Shown one piece after another: positions 45,706 to 60,077 of a stretch of DNA of 64,000 nucleotides. The notes under the pieces are model-generated. The model saw only the letters and a program-made list of their open reading frames with translations, was not told the DNA's origin and ran no database searches. The translations under genes were made by a program, and so were the position numbers. The stretch is from contig NZ_CP071696.1 in NCBI RefSeq assembly GCF_018024495.1, positions 2,790,001 to 2,854,000 of the forward strand, given 5' to 3'. This stretch comes from Agromyces archimandritae. Its GTDB lineage: Bacteria > Actinomycetota > Actinomycetes > Actinomycetales > Microbacteriaceae. Numbering within the stretch: the first letter of the stretch is position 1; each line of letters opens with the position of its first letter.

Positions 45706-47034
45706 ATGCTCTCAGAGAGGAGCAGCGTGGACATCCACGCTCTGAAACGGCAGGGGTTCACGATCAGCGAGATCGCCCGCCGCACCCACCACGACCGCAA
45801 GACGATCCGCGCATACCTGGCCGGTGAACGCAAACCTGGGGTCCGTAAACGCGCGGCGCCAGACGGGTTCGACGTGTTCGTCGACTATGTCACCGCACGG
45901 CTGGTAGAGGATCCGCATCTGTGGGCGGTGACACTGCTGGACGAGCTGCGTCCACTCGGCTACGACGGGTCGTATCCGACGCTGACCCGGCAGATCCGCG
46001 ACCGTGGGCTGCGGCCGGCATGCGTCGCGTGCGCGCATGTCACGAAACGCGCGAACGCCGTGATCGAGCACCCGCCCGGGGAGGAGACTCAGTTCGACTG
46101 GGTCGAGATGCCCGACCCGCCCGCCCATTGGGGATTCGGTCGCAAGACCGCATACGTCCTCGTCGGCTCTCTCGCGCACTCCGGTGTTTGGCGGGCGGTG
46201 ATCTCGCCGTCGATGGACACCCCGCACCTGCTCGCCGCGATGACAGCACTGCTCGGCCTGTTGGGCGGGCTGACCCGGGTCTGGCGCTTCGATCGGATGC
46301 GCACCGTCCTGGACCCGGGGACCGGGGATCTCACGGCGATGTTCGCGGGGTTCGCGAAGCACCATGGCGTCACCGCGGTGGTCTGCCGACCACGGTCAGG
46401 TAACCGCAAGGGCGTCGTCGAGAAGAACAACCACACCGCCGCGCAACGCTGGTGGCGCACACTGCCCGACGACCTCACCCTCGAGCAGGCGCAGGCCAGC
46501 CTGAACGCCTTCGCGGTCGGTCAGGATGCCCGGCGCCGTGAGGGCGAGCAGGGGTCGAGCACCGCGGTGGCCATGTTCGCGAACGAGCGACTCAGACCGC
46601 TGCCCACAGCAGCGTTCCCGGTGATCGTGACCGAGGAGCGCACCGCGACACGGCAGGCGCTGATCGACTGGCGCGGGAACCGCTACTCCGTCCCACCCGA
46701 ACTCGCCGCCGCGAAGGTGACCGTCTCCCAGCGCCTCGGCGCCGACATCATCGACATTGCCACCCTCTCGGGCGCGGTCATCGCCCGTCACCGGGTCGCT
46801 GAGCCCGGACTCGGAGTCACCGTCCGCGACACCGGGCACGTCACCGCGCTCGAGGCCGTCGCTCTGGCCTCGGCGCCACCGGGCCGCCCGCACCGACGCA
46901 AGGAACGCATCCCACCCGGCACGGCAGCACTCCGCGCTGCAGCCCTCCTCACCGGGCCTGCCGCGCCCGTCTCGACCGTGATCGATCTGGCCGCTTACGA
47001 GCAGGCCGCGAAGAACAGGAACACCCTCCGATGA
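45706..47034 (+). CDS. istA: IS21 transposase IstA
   Basis: The 442-residue transposase has an N-terminal HTH (KRQGFTISEIARRTHHDRKTIRAYLAG, about 14-38) and a DDE integrase core with Asp in EETQFDWVEM near 126, Asp in WRFDRMRTV near 197 and Glu in GVVEKNNHTAAQRWW near 240. A C-terminal beta domain contains RGNRYSVPPE. It looks intact. Its stop overlaps the istB start by four bases. Confidence 0.92.
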   Translation: MLSERSSVDIHALKRQGFTISEIARRTHHDRKTIRAYLAGERKPGVRKRAAPDGFDVFVDYVTARLVEDPHLWAVTLLDELRPLGYDGSYPTLTRQIRDRGLRPACVACAHVTKRANAVIEHPPGEETQFDWVEMPDPPAHWGFGRKTAYVLVGSLAHSGVWRAVISPSMDTPHLLAAMTALLGLLGGLTRVWRFDRMRTVLDPGTGDLTAMFAGFAKHHGVTAVVCRPRSGNRKGVVEKNNHTAAQRWWRTLPDDLTLEQAQASLNAFAVGQDARRREGEQGSSTAVAMFANERLRPLPTAAFPVIVTEERTATRQALIDWRGNRYSVPPELAAAKVTVSQRLGADIIDIATLSGAVIARHRVAEPGLGVTVRDTGHVTALEAVALASAPPGRPHRRKERIPPGTAALRAAALLTGPAAPVSTVIDLAAYEQAAKNRNTLR

Positions 47035-47849
47035 CCACCACCACACCCGCCCCGACCAAGACGGACGCGTCCGTCTATCAGCAGCTGCGCGGCCACCTCG
47101 CCGAACTGAAACTCGCCGACGCCGCTGACGCGCTCCCCACGGTCCTCGACCAGGCCGCCGCGGAGGGCTGGTCGCTCACCCATGCGCTCGAACGGCTCCT
47201 GCAGATCGAGGTCACCGCGACCGAAGCCCGCCGCCTCACCGGCCGGTTCCGCTTCGCGAACCTGCCCACCGGCGCCACCCTCGACGACTTCGACCACGAC
47301 CACGCCTCCGGCATCGACAAGTCCCTACTCGCCGAGCTCGGCACCTGCCGATTCATCGATACCGCCACGAACGTGTTGTTGATCGGCCCGCCCGGAGTCG
47401 GGAAGACGCACATCGCGACCGGCCTCGGGCACGCCGCCGTCACCGCCGGCTACCGCGTCTACTTCACCTCCGCCGCAGACCTCGCCGCCCGCTGCCACCG
47501 CGCCGCGATCGAGGGGAAATGGTCCACGATGATGCGGTTCTTCGCCGGACCCACGCTCCTCATCATCGACGAGCTCGGCTACTTGCCAGTGCCCGCAGAA
47601 GCCGCGTCCGCCCTGTTCCAAGTCATCAACCAGCGCTACCTGAAGACCTCGATCGTGATCACCACGAACCGGCCCGTCGGCGCCTGGGGCGAGGTCCTCG
47701 GCGACACCACCGTGGCCGCAGCCATGCTCGACCGACTCCTACACCGATCCGTCGTCGTCACACTCGACGGGCCCTCCTACCGGCTCCGCCACCACGCCAC
47801 CGCAGCCGACGAACTCCGCCGCGCCACGACCGGCACAAACCTGCACTAA
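47031..47849 (+). CDS. istB: IS21 helper ATPase IstB
   Basis: The 272-residue AAA+ protein has an N-terminal helical region, Walker A IGPPGVGKTHIATGLG near residue 117, Walker B LLIIDELGYLPV near 177 and the Sensor-like ITTNRPVGAWGEVLGD near 210. It regulates IstA-mediated strand transfer and target choice. It is intact and overlaps istA by ATGA, so the element may still be able to move. Confidence 0.92.
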   Translation: MTTTTPAPTKTDASVYQQLRGHLAELKLADAADALPTVLDQAAAEGWSLTHALERLLQIEVTATEARRLTGRFRFANLPTGATLDDFDHDHASGIDKSLLAELGTCRFIDTATNVLLIGPPGVGKTHIATGLGHAAVTAGYRVYFTSAADLAARCHRAAIEGKWSTMMRFFAGPTLLIIDELGYLPVPAEAASALFQVINQRYLKTSIVITTNRPVGAWGEVLGDTTVAAAMLDRLLHRSVVVTLDGPSYRLRHHATAADELRRATTGTNLH

Positions 47850-50387: not shown

Positions 50388-51245
50388 TCAGGTCTCGCCG
50401 AGCATTCGCGTGATCTGCTCCCATCGGCCGTCGGCGGCGAGCTGTCGGTATCGACGCGCCACCGTCTGCCACGACCCGAATGACGGTGGGAGCTCACGCC
50501 AGGGGATGCCGTAGTGCGCGCGATAGCGGATGGCGTTCACGACGGTGCGTGCGTCCGCACTGGGGCGGCCGCGGTTCCCTGGATCTGCCGGCTGCAGGAT
50601 GCGCGCGACCCGTTGCCATTGCTCGTCAATGAGCGGCCGAAAACGGGGACTGGTTGCTTCGGCGTTCTCAGCTGCCCCGGGCGAGGGGTTGCCGGCGCGC
50701 TGGTTGCTGCTGCGAGCGGCAACGATCACGCCGCGCGTCGTGTCGCACTCCGCGCATCGGGCCGTGTGTGGAGGCTCGTCTGCTCGACCGGTTGTCACGA
50801 ACGCGGCGTGCTCGCACGTGAGCTCGACGTACCAGCTGAACAGCGGGCCAGATGAGGCGGGGGACAGGAGCTCGCGCAGAACGTCGATCTGGCGCGGGCT
50901 CAATGGTGGTGGAGGGCAGCATCGATGGCAGTGGTCGGTCGAGCAGTCCTGAATCCTCCAGAACCCGAATCCGCACGCCGTGTGTGCTGAGCGGAAGGCG
51001 TCGTTGTCGGACACGGCGTCGAGTATTGGCGGCTCTTCGGCCATGCCTTCCACATCGCGCAGTGCTCGGTGGCATGCGCGGCATGGCTCGCCGGCGGCGA
51101 AGGCGTCATACGGCTGGTACAGACCTTCCGATGACCATCGCTTTCGTCCGGCCTCGAACATGGCCGTCTGAGCTTCGTGAGAGAGAGCCGCGGCGCGTGA
51201 GGTGCGATGAACGGACCGCGAGGTGGGCTCGTCTGGCGCTTGCAC
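50388..51245 (-). CDS. Cys-rich protein with C-terminal IS5-transposase-type (DUF4096) DNA-binding domain
   Basis: The 285-residue protein starts at a GTG with GGAGGAGA upstream. The first part has CxxC-like and His/Cys clusters (GEPCRACHRAL near 53, DHCHRCCPPPP near 105, LTCEHAAFVTT and ARCAEC near 140-165) that look like treble-clef zinc sites. The last 85 residues are a clear IS5-family transposase N-terminal domain: LIDEQWQRVARILQP, GNRGRPSADARTVVNAIRY and GIPWRELPPSFGSWQTV. No DDE catalytic part follows; the frame stops soon after. It could be a domesticated DNA-binding protein or a fusion left by a decayed IS5 element. It is divergent from the C-protein-like gene. Confidence 0.65.
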   Translation of the reverse strand: MQAPDEPTSRSVHRTSRAAALSHEAQTAMFEAGRKRWSSEGLYQPYDAFAAGEPCRACHRALRDVEGMAEEPPILDAVSDNDAFRSAHTACGFGFWRIQDCSTDHCHRCCPPPPLSPRQIDVLRELLSPASSGPLFSWYVELTCEHAAFVTTGRADEPPHTARCAECDTTRGVIVAARSSNQRAGNPSPGAAENAEATSPRFRPLIDEQWQRVARILQPADPGNRGRPSADARTVVNAIRYRAHYGIPWRELPPSFGSWQTVARRYRQLAADGRWEQITRMLGET

Positions 51246-51327
51246 GGGTTTTCTCCTCCGTTGATGCGATGACCGAGAGAGGCGAGGTCGCTCCCCTGTC
51301 GATGCGGACCAGAAACAGGAAGCGATA

Positions 51328-51347
51328 ACTTCCTGGAAGTCATGACT
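51328..51347. promoter_or_regulatory. Two overlapping palindromes over the regulator start (C-box-like operator)
   Basis: ACTTCCTGGAAGT (51328-51340) and AGTCATGACT (51338-51347) are both perfect inverted repeats; the second contains the ATG at 51342. A GATAACT (51324-51330) could be the -10 box of a nearly leaderless transcript. Restriction-modification controller proteins bind paired GACT/AGTC boxes in such promoters, so autoregulation is likely. Confidence 0.65.
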
Positions 51348-51584
51348 ACCAGCCTCAAGGCTGGAGAGGTGGCAGAACCGCTGAAGAAGGTGCTGGGATC
51401 GCACGTGCGCGGTCTCCGCCTCGAGCGTCGCCTGTCGCAGGAGGAGCTCGCTGAACAACTCGGAGTGTCTGCCCGATACCTGGCCGGCATCGAGCGCGGC
51501 GAGCGGAACCTCACATTGGACTCGGTAGACGCCCTCGCTGGGCAGCTGAACGTTGCGGCGGATGTGCTTCTGATGCGTGTATGA
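51342..51584 (+). CDS. Small XRE-family regulator, controller (C) protein-like
   Basis: The 80-residue protein is nearly all helix-turn-helix: VRGLRLERRLSQEELAEQLGVSARYLAGIERGERNLTLDSVDALAGQL, given here as a region (about 22-70). The size and the pattern ERNLT..S...LA match C proteins that time endonuclease expression in restriction-modification systems. The start lies inside a palindrome, with almost no leader. It overlaps the next small ORF by ATGA and precedes an EcoRI-family methylase, which supports a controller role. Confidence 0.82.
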   Translation: MTTSLKAGEVAEPLKKVLGSHVRGLRLERRLSQEELAEQLGVSARYLAGIERGERNLTLDSVDALAGQLNVAADVLLMRV

Positions 51585-51808
51585 CCCGAGGCTGTGCGTC
51601 GGGTTCGTTTCGACGAGCCGTCGATGAGCTGATCCGCTCAGGTCTGCAGAGGAATGGCGGGCAGTTCGAACCCCGCTCCGTGTTCGGTTTCATCGCGTCG
51701 CTCGATGAAGTGGTGGCGCGCTGCGGCGTCACCGACCTGCTCCTTCGCCGACTCGTGGCCGAGCACTCTTGCGACTCCGAGCCACGGCAGGAGGTGGGCA
51801 AGCCGTAG
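51581..51808 (+). CDS. Small ORF coupled to the controller gene, hypothetical
   Basis: The frame encodes 75 residues, including FRRAVDELIRSGLQRNGGQFEPRS and a helical SLDEVVARCGVTDLLLRRLVAEH. Its ATG overlaps the controller stop (ATGA), which favours translation. I recognise no family. It could be a small partner or just a readthrough frame; codon bias is only moderately gene-like. Confidence 0.45.
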   Translation: MTRGCASGSFRRAVDELIRSGLQRNGGQFEPRSVFGFIASLDEVVARCGVTDLLLRRLVAEHSCDSEPRQEVGKP

Positions 51809-51949
51809 CGACAGCGGGATCATGCTGTAGCGAGCAGCAGAAGCGCCGTGCCGTGCGTCCCGTCCCAGGAGGTGTCGGCCGTCACGGATACGATATGCAC
51901 ACGAGGAAGTGCCGCGATCCAGTGCGGTACCGGATCAGAGAGGGAGAGC

Positions 51950-53170
51950 ATGTCGACGGTCGCGAATCGGACTTCGAGCCTCAACGCGGCCAAGGCGGCC
52001 AAGAACGACGAGTTCTACACGCAATGGGCGGACATCGAGCGCGAGGTCAACGCTTACCTCGAGTACGACCCCGACGTGTTCCGCGGCAAGGTTCTCCTGC
52101 TTCCGTGCGACGATCCCGAGTGGTCGAACTTCGCAAAGTTCTTCGCCCTCCACTTCGTCGAACTTGGGCTCAAGAAGCTGATCTCGACGTCGTACGCCCC
52201 AGATAGCAATCCCGCGCTTTTCTCGTACGAGCCGACCCTCTTCGAGATGGATGATCCGAAGTTTGACGAGACCAAGACCCGCGCCAACGGGAAGAAGTTC
52301 GTCCTCGAGCCTGAGGACATCAACGGTGATGGTGTAGTCAACATCGATGACCTGCAGTGGGACTATCTCGAGGGCGACGGGGATTTTCGCAGTACCGAGG
52401 TCACCGCGCTGCGAGACGAAGCTGACATCATCATCACCAACCCGCCGTTCAGCCTGTTCCGCGAGTTCCTGACGTGGATCCAGAAGGGTGCGAAGCAGTT
52501 CTCGATTATCGGCAATGAGAATGCAATCGCCTATAAGAACGTGTTCCGACTGATCAAGCAAAACAAGATCTGGAAGGGCGCGACGGCGAACAGCACAGAC
52601 ATGGTCTTTGGCGTACCCAAGGGGTATCCGGTCAAGGAGAGCGATCGACTTAAGGCCGAGAAGCTCGGTTATCCTCCCGACGATGAGCATCACTACACGC
52701 GTCTTGGTAACTCGTGCTGGTTCACCAACATTGAGCATGGACGACGGCACGAGCCGCTCCAGCTAATGACGATGGCGGACAACCTGCGCTACAACAAGAA
52801 GCTGATCACCACCCTAGACGGCGGGACGACGTACCAGCGCTACGACAACTTCGATGCCATCGAGGTTCCGTATACCGATGCGATCCCGTCGGACTACGAG
52901 GGAGTCATGGGTGTCCCAATCACCTGGTTGGCCAAGTACAACCCAGATCAGTTCGAGATCATTGGGACGGACGAAACGGACTATGAGCCAACCAAGCTCT
53001 ACAAGGCGAAGCGGAAGGTGGTCAATGGCAGTCCGGTGAAGTCGAACACAGGCTCAGGTGGAGGCTACATCCGCGTCGAAGCATTCGGATCCGGCACCTA
53101 CTTCGACGTTGGGTATCCCGTTAGACGTATGTACAAGCGGATCTTCATCCGCCACCGGAAGGACGCCTAG
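51950..53170 (+). CDS. EcoRI-family adenine-specific DNA methyltransferase
   Basis: The 406-residue protein matches the M.EcoRI family of N6-adenine methylases: [22 protein letters not shown] (about 12-33), [22 protein letters not shown] near 48-69 and the catalytic motif [14 protein letters not shown] at 163-174. An EF-hand-like segment, [13 protein letters not shown], lies at 123-135. The ATG at 51950 follows AGAGGGAGAG. Codons such as ATA and AAA and the lower GC mark it as transferred. Its stop overlaps the DUF262 gene start (TAGTG). It should methylate host DNA at a target that cannot be read from the sequence. A cognate EcoRI-like endonuclease is absent; other nucleases follow. Confidence 0.88.
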
Positions 53171-54336
53171 TGGACACCGAGCTCAAGCACTACACCGTCG
53201 AAGAGGTTCTGAAGGGCTTCGTCTACAACGAGCTCGAGGGCAAGGGGCTGTTCGGACTCGACGGCAGGCTCGTCATCCAGCCTGAGTACCAGCGCAACTA
53301 CATCTATAACGACGGAAAGCGCGACGTCGCGGTGATCGATTCGCTGCTCAAGGGATACCCCCTCGGGCTGATCTACTTCAACGTTGAGGGCTCGACGCTC
53401 GAAGTCCTCGACGGACAACAGCGCATCACGAGTGTCGGCCGGTTCACCACTGGCAAGTTTGCCATCAAGGTCGGCGGAAAGGAGCAGACGTTCTCCTCGC
53501 TGCCGTTGAATCTCCAACGCACGATCCTCGACACCAGGCTCGACATCTATGAGTGCGACGGCACCGAGGACGAGATTAAGGCCTGGTTCCAGACGATCAA
53601 CATCGCCGGCGTGCCGCTAAACAGGCAGGAGCTGCGCAACGCGATCTACTCCGGGCCGTTCATCACCAAGGCCAAGGCGGAGTACTCCAACTCCAACAAC
53701 GCGAACATGCAGAAGTGGCAGTCGTACGTCAACGGCGACCCTAAGCGCCAGCAGATCCTCGAGGAGGCGCTTGAGTGGGTCGCGGCCCCGCACGGCCTGA
53801 CGATCGATGCCTATCTCGCCCAGCACCGCCAGGACACCGACATTGCCGAGCTGAAGAACTACTTCACCTCGGTCATCGACTGGGTCGCCGGCGTCTTCAT
53901 CCGGCCTCCGGACAAGGAAATGCGGGGCCTCGAGTGGGGCCGGCTCTACGAGGAGCACCACACGACGTCCTACAGCTCGGCGCAGCTCGATGATCGGATC
54001 AACGAGCTGCGCGGAGACCCCGCGGTGTACAGCCCGAAGGGCATCTACGAGTACCTGCTCGGCGGCGAGACAATGTCCCAGCTGCTCGACATCCGCTTGT
54101 TCGACGCGAAGGACAAGCGCGTCGCTTACGAGCGCCAGACGACTAAGGCCAAGGCCGCGGGCGAGTCGAACTGCCCCCTGTGCACAATCGCCGGGGACAG
54201 CAACAAGGCTCGGATCTACAAGCAGAACGAGATGGACGCCGACCACGTCACTGCCTGGTCGAAGGGCGGATCGACGAGCCTGTCCAACCTGACCATGCTC
54301 TGCCAGACGCACAACCGTGCCAAGGGCAATCGGTAG
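53170..54336 (+). CDS. DUF262 (ParB-like NTPase) protein with C-terminal HNH nuclease domain
   Basis: The 388-residue protein has an N-terminal DUF262 domain with [13 protein letters not shown] (36-48) and DGQQRITS (81-88), the motif seen in GmrSD-type and SspE-type restriction proteins. The C-terminal HNH domain (335-388) has zinc-type Cys335/Cys338 and Cys378/His381, the core DADHV with His359, and Asn373 in LSNLTMLC. It would hydrolyse a nucleotide and cut DNA. GTG 53170 overlaps the methylase stop, and the GHKL gene starts eight bases after its stop, so it is the middle gene of a tight operon. Whether it cuts unmodified or modified DNA is unknown. Confidence 0.85.
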
Positions 54337-54344
54337 GAACCGCG

Positions 54345-56330
54345 ATGACTCGCATCTCCCTTGAGGCCGGCAACGACCTCGTCGAGAGGCTCGCCCACGA
54401 GAACGACTCGGTCAAGGCGGTCGTCGAGCTCGTCTGGAACAGTCTTGACGCCGACGCCCATTCCGTCTCGGTGGCGCTACACCGCAACGAGGCAGACGGG
54501 GTCATAGGCCTCGAGGTCACCGACGACGGGCACGGCATGGCTCCCGAGGAGCTGTCCTCGGCTTTCCGGTGGGTTGGCAACTCGTGGAAGCGGATGGCTG
54601 GGCACAGCAAGGGCGAGCAGCGCCCGCTGCACGGCCGCTTCGGCCAAGGCCGGCTACGGGCGTTCGCGCTCGGCACCCAGATCGAATGGGTGACCGTCGC
54701 TGACAGCACCGATGGGAAGCGTCTTCGTTCGGTCGTCCGCTCCTCGGTCAACGCTCGGAACGATTTCGACGTCTCGGACCCGGTGGGCACAGACGAGGCC
54801 CGCGGGACGCGATTCGTCGCTTCAGGTCGTGATGCCCTGGACCGTCTTGACGCTGACAGGACGCGCGACCGGATCACGGCGACGTTCGCGCCGTACCTGC
54901 TCGCCCGCGACAATGTCGAGCTCGTCTATGACGGCTCACGCATCCAGCCCGGTGACGTCGTCGACCTAGACACCCCCTACGACCTCGAGTGGGAGCACGA
55001 GGGTGTCACCCGGCAGGCGAAGCTCCGGATCATTGAGTGGAAAGCGGGCGCGGAACGGACGATCCACCTCTGCGACGGAGAAGGCGTCCCGGTTGACGCG
55101 CTCGACACTGCTCCGGCCGCCGACTTCCAGTACTCGGCCTACGTCATGTGGGACGAGATGCCCGAGCATCACAACGAGTGGATCCTCGCGAAGCTCGAAA
55201 GCGCGCCCTCAGCCCTCGGAATGCTGCTCTCCGAGGTTGACCGGGTCCTCGACGAGCACTTCGAGGGTCGGCGCGCCCAGCGCCGCCGTGAGCTCGTCGA
55301 GGAGTGGAAGGACGGCAACGTCTACCCATACCAAGGCGAGCCGGGGACGGAGGAGGAGAAGGTCGAGCGGGCGACGTTCGATGTGGTCGCCACGTCGATC
55401 CGCAGGCACATCCCGAGCGGCAAGAAGCAGAAGAAGCTCACCCTCGGGCTGCTGCGCGAGTCGCTCCAGCAGCGGCCTAGCGACGTCTCAGCGTTGCTCG
55501 ACGAGTACGTCGGGCTGCCCGCCGACGAGAAGGAGCAGCTCGAGCGCCTCCTCACGCGTACCAGCCTGTCGCGGGTGATCCAAGCGTCGAGCAACGTCAC
55601 CAATCGGCTCGAGTTCCTCCGCGCCCTCGAGCTCATGGTCTTCGACCCCGAAGCGAACAAGATGGTCGGCGAACGGGACCACCTGCACAAGATCCTCGAG
55701 AGCGAGCTCTGGGTCTTCGGTGAGCAGTACAACCTCATGGTGAGCGAGCGGGGCCTGACAGCCGCGCTCCATCGGCACCGTGAATTGCTCGGTGAGCCGA
55801 GCACGGACAAGACGCCTGTGAAGCTGCTCGACGGCAAGTCGGGCCGGCTCGATCTCCTACTCTCCGTCGCCGCCACCGAGCATGACCGGAACCGACACCT
55901 CGTCGTCGAGCTCAAGGCTCCGAAGGTTCCGGCAGGACAAAAGGAACTGGCGCAGATCAAGGCGTACGCGATGGCGGTCGCCAAGGATCCGCGGTTCGCG
56001 AGCAGCACGACGGAATGGGACTTCTGGCTCGTAACGGGCGAGATCGACGATGGCGTCCGTCAGGAGGCGAACCAGCGGGGCCGGGAACGCGGAGTCGTGT
56101 TCGAGCCTGATCTCCCCGATGCGCCCGGAGCGAAGGTCAGGGTCTGGGTGCGCGATTGGGGCCAGATCATCGATGACGCCAAGCGTCGGCTCGACTACTT
56201 CCAGAAGAGCCTGCAGCATGATCCCTCGCTCGACGACGCACGGGACTATCTGCGCCGCAACCACGGCGACGTCATCCCTGAAGGACTGCTGGTCGACCAG
56301 ATCGGGAATGACGCTGCAGTCAACGAATGA
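54345..56330 (+). CDS. GHKL-type ATPase fused to a PD-(D/E)XK-like nuclease domain
   Basis: The 661-residue protein begins with a Bergerat-fold ATPase domain of the HSP90/MutL/MORC type: Glu28 and Asn32 in VELVWNSLDADA, DDGHGM at 60-65 and the lid GRFGQGRLRAFALG at 97-110. A long middle region (about 170-440) includes a basic helical stretch. The C-terminal part has WVFGEQYNL at 456-464, then GRLDLLLSV with Asp503 and HLVVELKAP with Glu522 and Lys524, the spacing of a PD-(D/E)XK nuclease core. GHKL ATPases in restriction-modification operons have been described in comparative genomics (MutL/MORC relatives), from memory. It is the last gene of the cluster. ATP-gated DNA cleavage is the likely role. 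Confidence 0.83.
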   Translation: MTRISLEAGNDLVERLAHENDSVKAVVELVWNSLDADAHSVSVALHRNEADGVIGLEVTDDGHGMAPEELSSAFRWVGNSWKRMAGHSKGEQRPLHGRFGQGRLRAFALGTQIEWVTVADSTDGKRLRSVVRSSVNARNDFDVSDPVGTDEARGTRFVASGRDALDRLDADRTRDRITATFAPYLLARDNVELVYDGSRIQPGDVVDLDTPYDLEWEHEGVTRQAKLRIIEWKAGAERTIHLCDGEGVPVDALDTAPAADFQYSAYVMWDEMPEHHNEWILAKLESAPSALGMLLSEVDRVLDEHFEGRRAQRRRELVEEWKDGNVYPYQGEPGTEEEKVERATFDVVATSIRRHIPSGKKQKKLTLGLLRESLQQRPSDVSALLDEYVGLPADEKEQLERLLTRTSLSRVIQASSNVTNRLEFLRALELMVFDPEANKMVGERDHLHKILESELWVFGEQYNLMVSERGLTAALHRHRELLGEPSTDKTPVKLLDGKSGRLDLLLSVAATEHDRNRHLVVELKAPKVPAGQKELAQIKAYAMAVAKDPRFASSTTEWDFWLVTGEIDDGVRQEANQRGRERGVVFEPDLPDAPGAKVRVWVRDWGQIIDDAKRRLDYFQKSLQHDPSLDDARDYLRRNHGDVIPEGLLVDQIGNDAAVNE

Positions 56331-56441
56331 CGGTCCCCCAGGTGCGGACCTAGGAGTCGTGGGTGTCGGCATGTTGGGCAGTTCAGATCAACAGCGCTGC
56401 TGGATGGCCTGGGGTGGATGTATTGGGGTCGCGACAACGAC

Positions 56442-56862
56442 TCACGTGTGACGAAAGCTGGAGTCAGCATCGTTCGCATCGTCGCGGAGTCGAGTTGCGG
56501 CGCGGTCGATGCGCTCAAAGAGGTCGATCGACTGCCATGCCTGACGTAGAAGGATGTTTTCTCGACCTTCCGCTGCCTCGAGCGCGGGGTTCAGAAGCAG
56601 AAGCTGCTCACGAGGCGCGTCGCTCTGTTGAGCAGCACGCGCGGCAGCGAGCAGCGCCTCCTCGAGCTCAGAGGCATCGAGCATGACCAATGACTCGAGC
56701 TCCGCAATGGATACAACCCCCACCGGGAGATCAGACTGCTGCAGGTGCTCCCAGATGAACCAGTTCTGGTTGACGAAGAAGGGTTCGAGCGTGACCACGA
56801 GACCGATCCGAGGCTTCGTGGCGTCGAGTTGGTGGAGCCCACCGCCAATCGTGTGGATATCG
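56442..56862 (-). pseudogene. C-terminal remnant of a gene truncated by the ISL3-like element
   Basis: An open minus-strand frame enters from the left ISL3 end at 56862 and stops at 56442, giving about 140 residues. These include DIHTIGGGLHQLDATKPRI, GLVVTLEPFFVNQNWFIWEHL, LPVGVVSIAELESLVML and a helical, acidic tail. The VVTLEP..F...WEHL..S.LPV..VSI.ELE pattern looks like the end of a PD-(D/E)XK-type enzyme that I have seen in other loci, but I cannot name it. The 5' part is not found beyond the IS pair, so it was probably lost by deletion. An internal GTG could yield a 118-residue product. Confidence 0.55.
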
Positions 56863-58319
56863 GGCTCTTCGGAGATCTGGTGGGGGTGAGGTGTCCGGGG
56901 CGTGACTGGCGTGTAGGGGTCGAGGTCCCCGAGGATCAGAAGCGCTAACCACCTGATTCCGACCGAGGACCTCGACGTGCTTCACCTTACTTCGGGGCGC
57001 GTTGACGCGCGTCCGGCTGCTGATCCCTGTGACCGTTGTGACCTGCTGCTGGGCCTGGACGGGGTCCACGTCGAGCATGTCGATCGCCGTGACGGCCTGC
57101 TGACGGTCACGGTCTCCAGCCCGCCGGGACCTGCCGGGTGCCCATCGTGCGGGGTGATCGCGACCGGTCGTGGCCGCCGACGCCGGGTGCTGCGGGACGT
57201 GCCTGGCGCTGACCGGGTGCGCCTGGTATGGCGGCAACGCGTCTTCCGCTGCGAGGACACCGACTGCGGCCGGAAGACGTTCATGGAACAGCTCCCGTCG
57301 TTGGTCGCCCCACGCGGATCGATCACGGCCCGTGCCGTGGTCTGGGCGATCGGGCAGTTGCGTCGCGAACACGCCACCGTCCAAGGCTTGGCTCGTCAGC
57401 TCGACACGTCGTGGAAGACGCTCTGGCGGGCCGTCGAACCCGAACTCGAGCAGCTTGCCGCCGACGAGTCCCGGTTCGACGGGGTCAGCACCCTCGGTGT
57501 CGATGAACACATCTGGCACCACGTCGATCCCGCATGCGCGGCCCGAAGGAGTTGACCGGGATGGTCGACCTGACCCGCGACGAGCACGGCAAGACGCACG
57601 CCAGGCTGCTGGACCTCGTGCCCGGCCGTTCCGGGCGCGTCTACAAGGCCTGGCTGGACCAACGCGGCGAGGACTTCCGTCGGAACGTGAAAGTGGCCGC
57701 CTTGGATCCCTTCGCCGGCTACAAGGCCGCCATCGACGACAAGCTCCACGACGCGATCGCCGTGCTGGACGCGTTCCACGTTGTGAAGCTCGCTACCGCC
57801 GCCGTCGACGAGGTCCGCCGCCGGGTCCAACAGGACACCCTCGGCCATCGCGGCCGGAAGGGCGACCCGCTCTACGGGATCCAGACCATCCTCCGCGCCG
57901 GGGCCGAGCACCTCACCGACAAGCAACGAGCACGTCTGGTCGCCGCGATCAACGCCGACCCCGCCCACGAGGAAGTCTTCATCGCCTGGCAGTGTGCACA
58001 GCAACTCCGCGCCGCCTACCACGCGAAGGATCTGGCCCAAGGACGACGGATCGCCGTCACCGTCGTCGACACGTTCCACACCTGCCCGATCCCCGAGATC
58101 GCCCGCTTGGGCCGCACCCTGAGACGGTGGCGCGACGCGTTCCTGGCCTACTTCACCACCGGCCGCTCATCCAACGGCGGCACCGAGGCCGTGAACGGCA
58201 TCATCGAACTCCACCGCCGCCTCGCCAGAGGCTTCCGCAACCGCCACAACTACCGCCTCCGCATGCTCCTCGCCGCCGGCGGCCTCACCCCATGACCCCC
58301 ACCGGATGTCCGAAGAGCC
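56863..58319 (+). mobile_element. ISL3-family-like insertion sequence, copy 1
   Basis: The element is 1457 bp, bounded by inverted repeats GGCTCTTCGGAGATCTGGTG (left) and the complement of GGCTCTTCGGACATCCGGTG (right). It carries one transposase gene broken by a one-base deletion. It stands five bases before a second, otherwise near-identical copy in the same orientation. A target duplication with the flanks is not visible. Confidence 0.88.
56977..58295 (+). pseudogene. ISL3-family transposase, frameshifted (copy 1)
   Basis: The intact form would be about 439 residues: N-terminal zinc finger with CPSCGV and CEDTDCGRKTF (about 50-95), an HTH with ATVQGLARQLDTSWKTLWRAV, then a DDE domain with Asp in TLGVDEHIWHH, Asp in AALDPFAGYKAAI and Glu in GGTEAVNGIIELH. 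Here one G is missing after GATCC at 57530/57531, so the frame breaks at HVDP and resumes at 57534 with MRGPKELTGM. Elsewhere the translation equals that of copy 2. Confidence 0.85.
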
Positions 58320-58324
58320 CTTGC

Positions 58325-59783
58325 GGCTCTTCGGAGATCTGGTGGGGGTGAGGTGTCCGGGGCGTGACTGGCGTGTAGGGGTCGAGGTCCCCGAGGATCA
58401 GAAGCGCTAACCACCTGATTCCGACCGAGGACCTCGACGTGCTTCACCTTACTTCGGGGCGCGTTGACGCGCGTCCGGCTGCTGATCCCTGTGACCGTTG
58501 TGACCTGCTGCTGGGCCTGGACGGGGTCCACGTCGAGCATGTCGATCGCCGTGACGGCCTGCTGACGGTCACGGTCTCCAGCCCGCCGGGACCTGCCGGG
58601 TGCCCATCGTGCGGGGTGATCGCGACCGGTCGTGGCCGCCGACGCCGGGTGCTGCGGGACGTGCCTGGCGCTGACCGGGTGCGCCTGGTATGGCGGCAAC
58701 GCGTCTTCCGCTGCGAGGACACCGACTGCGGCCGGAAGACGTTCATGGAACAGCTCCCGTCGTTGGTCGCCCCACGCGGATCGATCACGGCCCGTGCCGT
58801 GGTCTGGGCGATCGGGCAGTTGCGTCGCGAACACGCCACCGTCCAAGGCTTGGCTCGTCAGCTCGACACGTCGTGGAAGACGCTCTGGCGGGCCGTCGAA
58901 CCCGAACTCGAGCAGCTTGCCGCCGACGAGTCCCGGTTCGACGGGGTCAGCACCCTCGGTGTCGATGAACACATCTGGCACCACGTCGATCCGCGCATGC
59001 GCGGCCCGGAAGGAGTTGACCGGGATGGTCGACCTGACCCGCGACGAGCACGGCAAGACGCACGCCAGGCTGCTGGACCTCGTGCCCGGCCGTTCCGGGC
59101 GCGTCTACAAGGCCTGGCTGGACCAACGCGGCGAGGACTTCCGTCGGAACGTGAAAGTGGCCGCCTTGGATCCCTTCGCCGGCTACAAGGCCGCCATCGA
59201 CGACAAGCTCCACGACGCGATCGCCGTGCTGGACGCGTTCCACGTTGTGAAGCTCGCTACCGCCGCCGTCGACGAGGTCCGCCGCCGGGTCCAACAGGAC
59301 ACCCTCGGCCATCGCGGCCGGAAGGGCGACCCGCTCTACGGGATCCAGACCATCCTCCGCGCCGGGGCCGAGCACCTCACCGACAAGCAACGAGCACGTC
59401 TGGTCGCCGCGATCAACGCCGACCCCGCCCACGAGGAAGTCTTCATCGCCTGGCAGTGTGCACAGCAACTCCGCGCCGCCTACCACGCGAAGGATCTGGC
59501 CCAAGGACGACGGATCGCCGTCACCGTCGTCGACACGTTCCACACCTGCCCGATCCCCGAGATCGCCCGCTTGGGCCGCACCCTGAGACGGTGGCGCGAC
59601 GCGTTCCTGGCCTACTTCACCACCGGCCGCTCATCCAACGGCGGCACCGAGGCCGTGAACGGCATCATCGAACTCCACCGCCGCCTCGCCAGAGGCTTCC
59701 GCAACCGCCACAACTACCGCCTCCGCATGCTCCTCGCCGCCGGCGGCCTCACCCCATGACCCCCACCGGATGTCCGAAGAGCC
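58325..59783 (+). mobile_element. ISL3-family-like insertion sequence, copy 2
   Basis: The second copy is 1459 bp with the same terminal inverted repeats. It is separated from copy 1 by CTTGC (58320-58324). The same CTTGC occurs just after its right end (59784 onward: ACTCTTGC), which may be part of an imperfect target duplication. Copies 1 and 2 differ by their respective indels in the transposase. Confidence 0.88.
58439..59759 (+). pseudogene. ISL3-family transposase, frameshifted (copy 2)
   Basis: This is the same transposase as copy 1 but with an extra G near 59008-59009 (CCCGGAAGG where the reading frame needs CCCGAAGG). The frame breaks just after MRGP, about 18 bases from the site of the copy 1 deletion. 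The two halves, residues 1 to about 190 and about 191 to 439, are otherwise open and complete with zinc finger, HTH and DDE residues. Neither copy could make full transposase without frameshifting, unless the indels are sequencing errors. Confidence 0.85.
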
Positions 59784-60077
59784 ACTCTTGCCTTGAACTG
59801 ATTCCAGGTTGGGGGAGTGCGAGACCGGGGATAGCGGAACGTGGCGTGCACTGCAACTCAGTTGAACTCGAAGGTTCGATACGACGACTGCACGTTGAAG
59901 TGCCGACCATCTCTCCGCCGCTGTACGAAGTCCGCGATCGTGTCGACGTCCTTGCCCCGCATCCCAAGCTGGCGGCACTTCGCCCGCACCTGCTCGACGG
60001 TGATGCCAGCCCAGCGGTCTGGGCGGTTCATCATGTCTGTGGGCTGTGTCAAGTTCGGTGGACGGTCTGTTTGGTGT

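Follow-up and report, generated by a model that had tools for sequence, protein, structure and literature searches.

Gene layout of the locus

The window analyzed here is a stretch of 64,000 nucleotides from the genome of Agromyces archimandritae (a single contig of 3.45 Mb), and its positions 51342..56330 hold five reading frames in one direction: those of an XRE-type regulator, a small open reading frame (ORF), an N6-adenine methylase of the EcoRI family, a protein joining a DUF262 domain to a C-terminal HNH nuclease domain, and a GHKL ATPase with a nuclease-like C-terminus. An earlier note, made from the sequence alone, had proposed that they form a compound restriction-modification (R-M) system with a C-like controller. 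The genes, the overlaps ATGA and TAGTG, the eight-base gap, and the motifs it quoted were all found as described (ORF list, Pfam, and reading of the sequence), including [12 protein letters not shown] in the methylase and DGQQRITS together with the HNH domain in the DUF262 protein. The profile searches it had proposed found PF13651, PF03235, and HNH, with the GHKL gene matching PF13589, and PADLOC returned matches to REase_II, MTase_II, and Control_protein. Assigned to modules according to the reading argued for below, the features are as follows.

51342..51584, + strand: XRE-type regulator of 80 residues (HTH_3, 5e-14; PADLOC Control_protein, 1.5e-12), a possible local controller
51581..51808, + strand: small ORF of 75 residues, overlapping the XRE gene by ATGA, perhaps not a gene
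51950..53170, + strand: N6-adenine methylase of the EcoRI family (PF13651, 1.3e-117; PADLOC MTase_II, 2.3e-86); module 1, modification
53170..54336, + strand: DUF262 (GmrS-like)-HNH protein (PF03235, 7e-20; PF01844 HNH, 1.3e-7; PADLOC REase_II PDLC03418, 3.6e-89); module 1, proposed restriction nuclease
54345..56330, + strand: GHKL ATPase with a putative C-terminal PD-(D/E)XK nuclease, paraMORC3-like, 661 residues (PF13589, 2.7e-18); module 2, separate

With the methylase start taken as ATG 51950 (406 residues, as in the 406-residue database copy P0241), the tight run that had been described for all genes holds at the ATGA, TAGTG, and eight-base junctions but is broken between the small ORF and the methylase, which lie 141 bases apart; because of this gap, the XRE gene and the small ORF are not coupled to the rest of the operon. 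The methylase and DUF262 genes share TAGTG at their junction. The GHKL gene, with its start taken as ATG 54345 (as in database copy P0001), begins 8 bases past the DUF262 stop codon, and its AGGA ribosome site overlaps that stop, so that the two modules are probably carried on one transcript here. A scan of 51250-56700 for sigma-70-like promoters gave none compared with 0.8 expected, which says little for an actinobacterium. The GC content is 56-60% over the methylase-DUF262 pair and 65-66% over the GHKL gene, compared with 71% in a sample of the genome.

A two-gene unit of methylase and DUF262-HNH protein

Both proteins have thousands of relatives: protein searches scored 8000 candidates for the DUF262 protein and 7999 for the methylase, all at E ≤ 0.001, and the best 120 of each were used. 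By sequence, the pairing of an EcoRI-like methylase with a DUF262-HNH protein is widespread. At the DNA level, positions 51300-56400 matched 22 plasmid records, and none of the best 15 of these covered 80% of the query. The seven best matches begin at 51929-52001 and finish at 54269-54338, close to the ends of the methylase and DUF262 genes, and two further records match only short stretches of the GHKL gene (among the matches listed).

Of 70 plasmid records holding a relative of the methylase, the best 60 (H81-H140) were compared with 50 DUF262 records (the union of the best 40 of 44 rows and the 50 rows of a second search) and 19 R.EcoRI records (H156-H174). A DUF262 relative accompanied the methylase in 45 of them and R.EcoRI in 10, none had both, and five had neither; the records are partly redundant, 9 of the 45 being Enterococcus faecium plasmids with the same gap and 6 of the 10 Escherichia coli plasmids. 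The two genes lay at most 200 bp apart in 39 of the 45 pairs; the DUF262 matches are in part incomplete, and the larger gaps may in some cases span the start of a circular record. Conversely, 5 of the 50 DUF262 records were absent from the best 60 of 70 methylase records, a count that the remaining 10 could alter: one holds a methylase fragment beside an IS256 transposase, three hold DUF262 fragments (55% of the query), and one is from Chryseobacterium.

Genomes gave a similar picture. Within the family of the window's host, a DUF262 relative was found in 10 of 398 genomes (E 1e-40), and the methylase adjoins it in all nine family regions fetched (one of them in two pieces), the tenth match outside the host's own genome starting at a contig end. 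A sample of the class held the methylase in 6 of 394 genomes, with DUF262 adjoining in four of the five other than the host's own. The distances among methylases correlate with those among their DUF262 partners (Mantel r 0.90 for 25 pairs; maximum of 5000 shuffles, 0.59, although such shuffles ignore shared ancestry). The methylase gene, then, adjoins the nuclease gene and is inherited together with it, as in Type II R-M systems, and on these comparisons the two are a two-gene unit that looks like an R-M pair.

The two genes differ, however, in their nearest relatives. The window methylase is nearest to that of Arthrobacter sp. 31.31 (88%; its DUF262 protein, 74%), whereas the window DUF262 protein is nearer to those of Gordonia and of genome G325 (85%; their methylases, 71-72%). 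DNA identity to G325 climbs from 65-68% to 85% at the junction of the two genes, and identity to Arthrobacter drops from 77-88% to 65-69% within the DUF262 gene at ∼53,900; because identity shifts at these two places, recombination inside the pair is suggested.

A DUF262-HNH protein probably in the place of R.EcoRI

The methylase taken as M.EcoRI comes from an E. coli plasmid of 3,986 bases whose annotation includes a "type-2 restriction enzyme EcoRI." The window methylase, a PF13651 protein as expected of an EcoRI system, is 41% identical to it over query residues 11-344, with [10 protein letters not shown] common to both, and the two systems are alike in consisting of two adjacent genes and in occurring on plasmids. 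They differ in the partner: the window's DUF262-HNH protein is unrelated to R.EcoRI (a direct comparison gave no significant similarity) and its gene lies behind the methylase, whereas that of R.EcoRI lies in front of M.EcoRI.

A tree of 29 methylases has a split supported at 100/99, and its 7-row side contains both rows of M.EcoRI together with the DUF262-partnered methylases of Ruania, genome G503, Macrococcoides, and Gordonia KTR9 and one without DUF262. The other 22 rows are DUF262-partnered except for one from Campylobacter. The tree is midpoint rooted, the long rows of Ruania, G503, and Campylobacter are of unsure placement, and the inner M.EcoRI fork is weak (85/48). The simplest reading of the sequences is an exchange of nucleases beside one methylase family, in either direction. 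Most of the plasmid records compared pair the methylase with one nuclease or the other, and none with both; given also the 41% identity of the window methylase to M.EcoRI, R.EcoRI is most likely replaced here by the DUF262-HNH protein.

Both proteins match PADLOC models near full length, the DUF262 protein PDLC03418 (over residues 19-387) and the methylase PDLC03297, and are therefore already catalogued as Type II R-M, although such a match is a model label and not a tested function. The proposal that the locus matches no named system stands only in part: PADLOC files the pair as a Type II methyltransferase and restriction endonuclease, and the layout of the GHKL protein is that of paraMORC3, described in 2008 (excerpts of PMC2292703). 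The pair itself is undescribed in the literature searched, as full-text searches of one collection, judged by their listings, yielded no paper on an EcoRI-family methylase with a DUF262-HNH protein.

The DUF262-HNH protein shares with GmrSD, BrxU, and SspE an N-terminal DUF262 domain with DGQQR and a C-terminal nuclease of HNH type, and both DGQQR and the HNH residues (Cys, DH, Asn, His) are invariant in the alignments of its relatives. It differs from GmrSD in that its C-terminal domain matches PF01844 and related HNH models at E 0.1, not DUF1524 (PF07510), and it is shorter (388 residues) than structure chain 7p9k (587 residues), which we take to be BrxU. It also differs from all three in standing beside an EcoRI-family methylase in most records listed.

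HNH domains are common in mobile genes, and the pair is found on small plasmids and near integrases, which fits a nuclease of homing type, or an accessory one, that travels with the methylase without conferring protection. The long shared history of the pair, the unchanged gene order across the loci read, and the invariance of the DGQQR and HNH residues speak against this, and we regard it as very improbable.

A second alternative comes from the biochemistry of the family. According to excerpts of two papers, GmrSD and BrxU cleave modified DNA, and SspE requires a DNA mark (PMC10952713, PMC12707154). The DUF262-HNH protein could likewise be an effector resembling Type IV enzymes or SspE, activated by a base mark that is either foreign or made by its own methylase; the methylase would then be a signal or toggle and not a shield. 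Set against this are the C-terminal HNH domain, which is of the PF01844 and not the DUF1524 kind, and the tight pairing with an EcoRI-family N6-adenine methylase with no record that also holds R.EcoRI; these last two features make the pattern that of a shielding methylase, and a mark-triggered effector seems unlikely. A phylogenomic survey of GmrSD names Type I elements as its commonest defense neighbors, and "EcoRI" is absent from its main text (PMC4619093).

The GHKL-nuclease protein

The D-x(18)-E-x-K pattern of the GHKL protein comprises D502, E521, and K523 (numbering of query 54348-56327). In an alignment of 30 sequences including that of the window, these residues and Q536 are invariant, as are the residues of the GHKL motifs (E27, N31, D59, G61, G63, G99, and G101), so that the ATPase part has what is expected of a paraMORC3 protein. 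HSDR_N_2 matches the nuclease part weakly (best 0.0008) in 27 of the 30. Among the 8000 candidates scored, 464 were relatives, and a scan of viral contigs gave one distant relative (34%).

The predicted layout, a GHKL ATPase followed by a C-terminal PD-(D/E)XK nuclease, is that of paraMORC3 and of VcSduA. The former combines GHKL with a restriction-endonuclease fold carrying E-D-ExK, and part of its family is stand-alone (Iyer et al., excerpts of PMC2292703). The latter joins GHKL to a Shedu nuclease and protects against phages, and changes in either the ATPase or the nuclease site abolish protection (PMC12137116, section 12). As far as the layout tells, the window protein may work like VcSduA. 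It differs in that SduA_C (PF14082) was not detected in it, the nuclease part being weakly HSDR_N_2-like: SduA_C was absent from the 10 families found in the 30 members at E 1 and had no match in the host's own genome at E 10, although a very distant relation could still escape a profile search. The protein was not assigned to Shedu. Its N-terminal GHKL part also matches the BbrUII/HgiDII restriction enzymes (1.5e-16), but with 60 bits compared with a curated NCBIfam cut-off of 550, the best stretch being limited to residues 24-180.

Whether the GHKL gene belongs with the pair was judged from its neighborhoods. Thirty-nine GHKL loci were taken from genome records (flanks of at most 7 kb, two partial matches, several loci ended by contig ends), and none contained a methylase or DUF262 relative at E 0.001. 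In the family sample, the GHKL gene occurs in 10 of 398 genomes, as many as DUF262, and the two overlap only in the host's own genome (chance expectation, ∼0.25). It is present in 41 plasmid records, and none of the best 40 of these is among the methylase or DUF262 plasmid records. Of 12 further genomes with GHKL relatives of at least 49% (L010 left out), one has a DUF262 relative (44%, E 1e-20), apparently on another contig, and the DUF262/methylase loci fetched from other genomes had no GHKL gene in the stretch read. The expectation that the three large genes would stay adjacent elsewhere was thus borne out for methylase and DUF262 but not for GHKL, in the 39 loci, the 398 genomes, and the plasmids alike.

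In a metagenome comparison, contig sizes and source tags were matched between the lists of protein matches, with shifted lists as a control. Methylase-DUF262 pairs were recovered (13 compared with 0.7 expected), GHKL and methylase never matched, and GHKL matched DUF262 twice, where 0.57 matches were expected and the shifted controls reached as many as 4. One of the two, at 6093 bases, was dropped because the source tags were unlike. In the other, a GHKL relative (88%, P0014) and a DUF262 relative (76%, P0189) both lie on a contig of 13,191 bases with like tags, perhaps one and the same contig; a same-tag match arose in 28% of the shifted controls at any size and in 1.5% at 10 kb or more, this cut having been set after the match was seen. 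Were this a single contig, relatives of GHKL and of DUF262 would lie together outside the window too.

These results bear on the compound system of the earlier note, in which methylase, DUF262-HNH, and GHKL protein would act together, the last as a second effector or as a translocation or clamp module. The shared strand, the short gap, the overlap of AGGA with the DUF262 stop, and the 13,191-base contig all fit such a system, and GHKL genes are known in R-M operons (excerpts of PMC2292703). But the pair accompanies GHKL in none of the 39 loci, in none of the best 40 of 41 GHKL plasmids, and in no family genome except the host's own, and GHKL is lacking from the stretches read of the pair's fetched loci in other genomes. 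The part of the proposal that joins methylase and DUF262-HNH stands; since the GHKL relatives examined stand without the pair, that which adds GHKL as a third part is unsupported. Rejected as the leading reading by the neighborhood tests, the compound system is improbable, and the three proteins are probably not one machine. We likewise consider improbable a variant in which the methylase/DUF262-HNH operon of some lineages has acquired, at its downstream end, a stand-alone nuclease of paraMORC3 type as a second ATP-gated effector, giving one methylase with two unrelated nucleases, of which the 13,191-base contig could be a second case.

Distant GHKL relatives (31-33%) lie beside other R-M genes on two plasmids, in one (L090) with a 4-base overlap to a Type ISP gene and in the other (L091) with dcm and a LlaMI-type enzyme, near drt2. 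The idea they suggested, that GHKL is a mobile add-on of R-M systems generally, was dropped; a crude screen for methylase motifs was positive in 1 of the 39 GHKL loci.

Two probably independent modules in one defense island

We favor, with a probability of about three in four, two independent modules standing head to tail in one defense island, a two-gene R-M system and a self-contained GHKL nuclease. The EcoRI-family methylase would mark a short site with N6-methyladenine. DNA lacking this mark would be cut by the DUF262-HNH protein, which has a GmrS-like NTP-binding domain and an HNH nuclease and would fill the place of R.EcoRI beside M.EcoRI. In module 2 (54345-56330), the GHKL ATPase domain, probably dimeric, would gate the PD-(D/E)XK nuclease, as hypothesized for VcSduA. 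The GHKL gene would have come to sit behind module 1 as a probably cotranscribed neighbor and not as a working part.

Several points weigh against this reading. Besides the five methylase plasmids with neither nuclease, the shared ancestry that the Mantel shuffles ignore, and the 13,191-base contig, the class genome G935 has the methylase without DUF262 beside it (one of five). The pair could act in reverse, that is on modified DNA, because GmrSD relatives cut modified DNA or, as SspE, are mark-triggered. GAATTC, the presumed site, is not avoided by the host: 464 kb contain 28 copies where 24.3 were expected, and the genome as a whole contains 266, which decides nothing. Finally, the literature searched reports no activity of the pair or of close relatives of the GHKL protein.

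Among the plasmid relatives of the window methylase, a GmrSD-type nuclease is a commoner partner than R.EcoRI (45 compared with 10 in the partly redundant best 60 of 70 records). Should the DUF262-HNH protein indeed cleave DNA without the methyl mark, then one branch of a family known to act on modified DNA would do the reverse. How DUF262 proteins tell self from non-self could then be tested directly, by setting the two kinds of nuclease that accompany this methylase family side by side.

The XRE gene and the small ORF

The XRE protein had been taken for a C-like controller of the system, a role at odds with the relatives' loci, where it is not conserved with the pair: the fetched methylase/DUF262 loci gave two weak matches only (L085 and L100). 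The small ORF had no match in Pfam, PADLOC, or NCBIfam and no tblastn match in the fetched loci apart from its own genome, and relatives of neither were found at E 0.001 in the 39 GHKL loci. By these comparisons, the two are conserved with neither module.

The surrounding defense island

The genes and mobile elements around the two modules are as follows.

45706-47849: IS21 pair, transposase and IstB helper, on the left side of the segment
48306-50189, − strand: protein of 627 residues with a partial PADLOC HEC-07 match (8.5e-16, residues 177-448) and no Pfam family over the cut-off
50634..51278, − strand: Cys/His-rich protein, divergent from the operon, a neighbor in neither module, whose homologs precede GHKL in 6 of 39 loci
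56863-59786: two head-to-tail copies of an ISL3-family transposase, spaced 1462-1464 bases and identical over the 300-base stretches compared

Judging from the defense neighbors of the Cys/His-rich gene, the HEC-07-like gene, and the flanking insertion sequences (IS21 with a DUF4096 fragment on one side, ISL3 on the other), this segment resembles a defense hotspot where unrelated systems have gathered. Ten hand-picked neighbors from seven GHKL loci, a non-random choice without control, all matched PADLOC: Gabija (L017, L029), Type I (L003), Type IIG with a weak PbeA match (L002), Type III (L033), PDC-S19 (L006, overlapping the GHKL gene), and a HamB/PDC-M23B-like helicase (L016).

The Cys/His-rich gene is present in 14 of 398 family genomes, two of which, the host's own and G527, also hold GHKL. 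Two members scanned had no significant Pfam match, and the Cys/His pattern is invariant in five aligned rows. Ten regions were fetched (L153-L162), and 8 of 10 neighbor proteins hand-picked from seven of them, again without control, matched PADLOC: HamB with RmrA (L154), RmrA (L153), an OLD/AriA-like ATPase (L160), a Type I methyltransferase with its S subunit (L161), DrmD (L155), and PrimPol (L156); two others (L155 and L158) had no PADLOC match. The family is often divergent from, and within ∼4 kb of, defense genes (GHKL nuclease, HamB, RmrA, Type I R-M, DrmD), and it may mark a defense hotspot in actinobacteria. An insertion of the pair between the Cys/His-rich gene and GHKL was considered, as the six loci counted above (L018, L019, L025, L030, L032, L039) have a homolog of the former on the opposite strand, no more than three predicted genes upstream of GHKL; on the other side, only the two family genomes just named hold both genes, and the Cys/His-rich gene is also found near other defense genes. 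In the window, its reading frame runs on into the DUF4096 transposase fragment (ORF 50388-51458), and the reading frames of the two ISL3 copies differ from each other.

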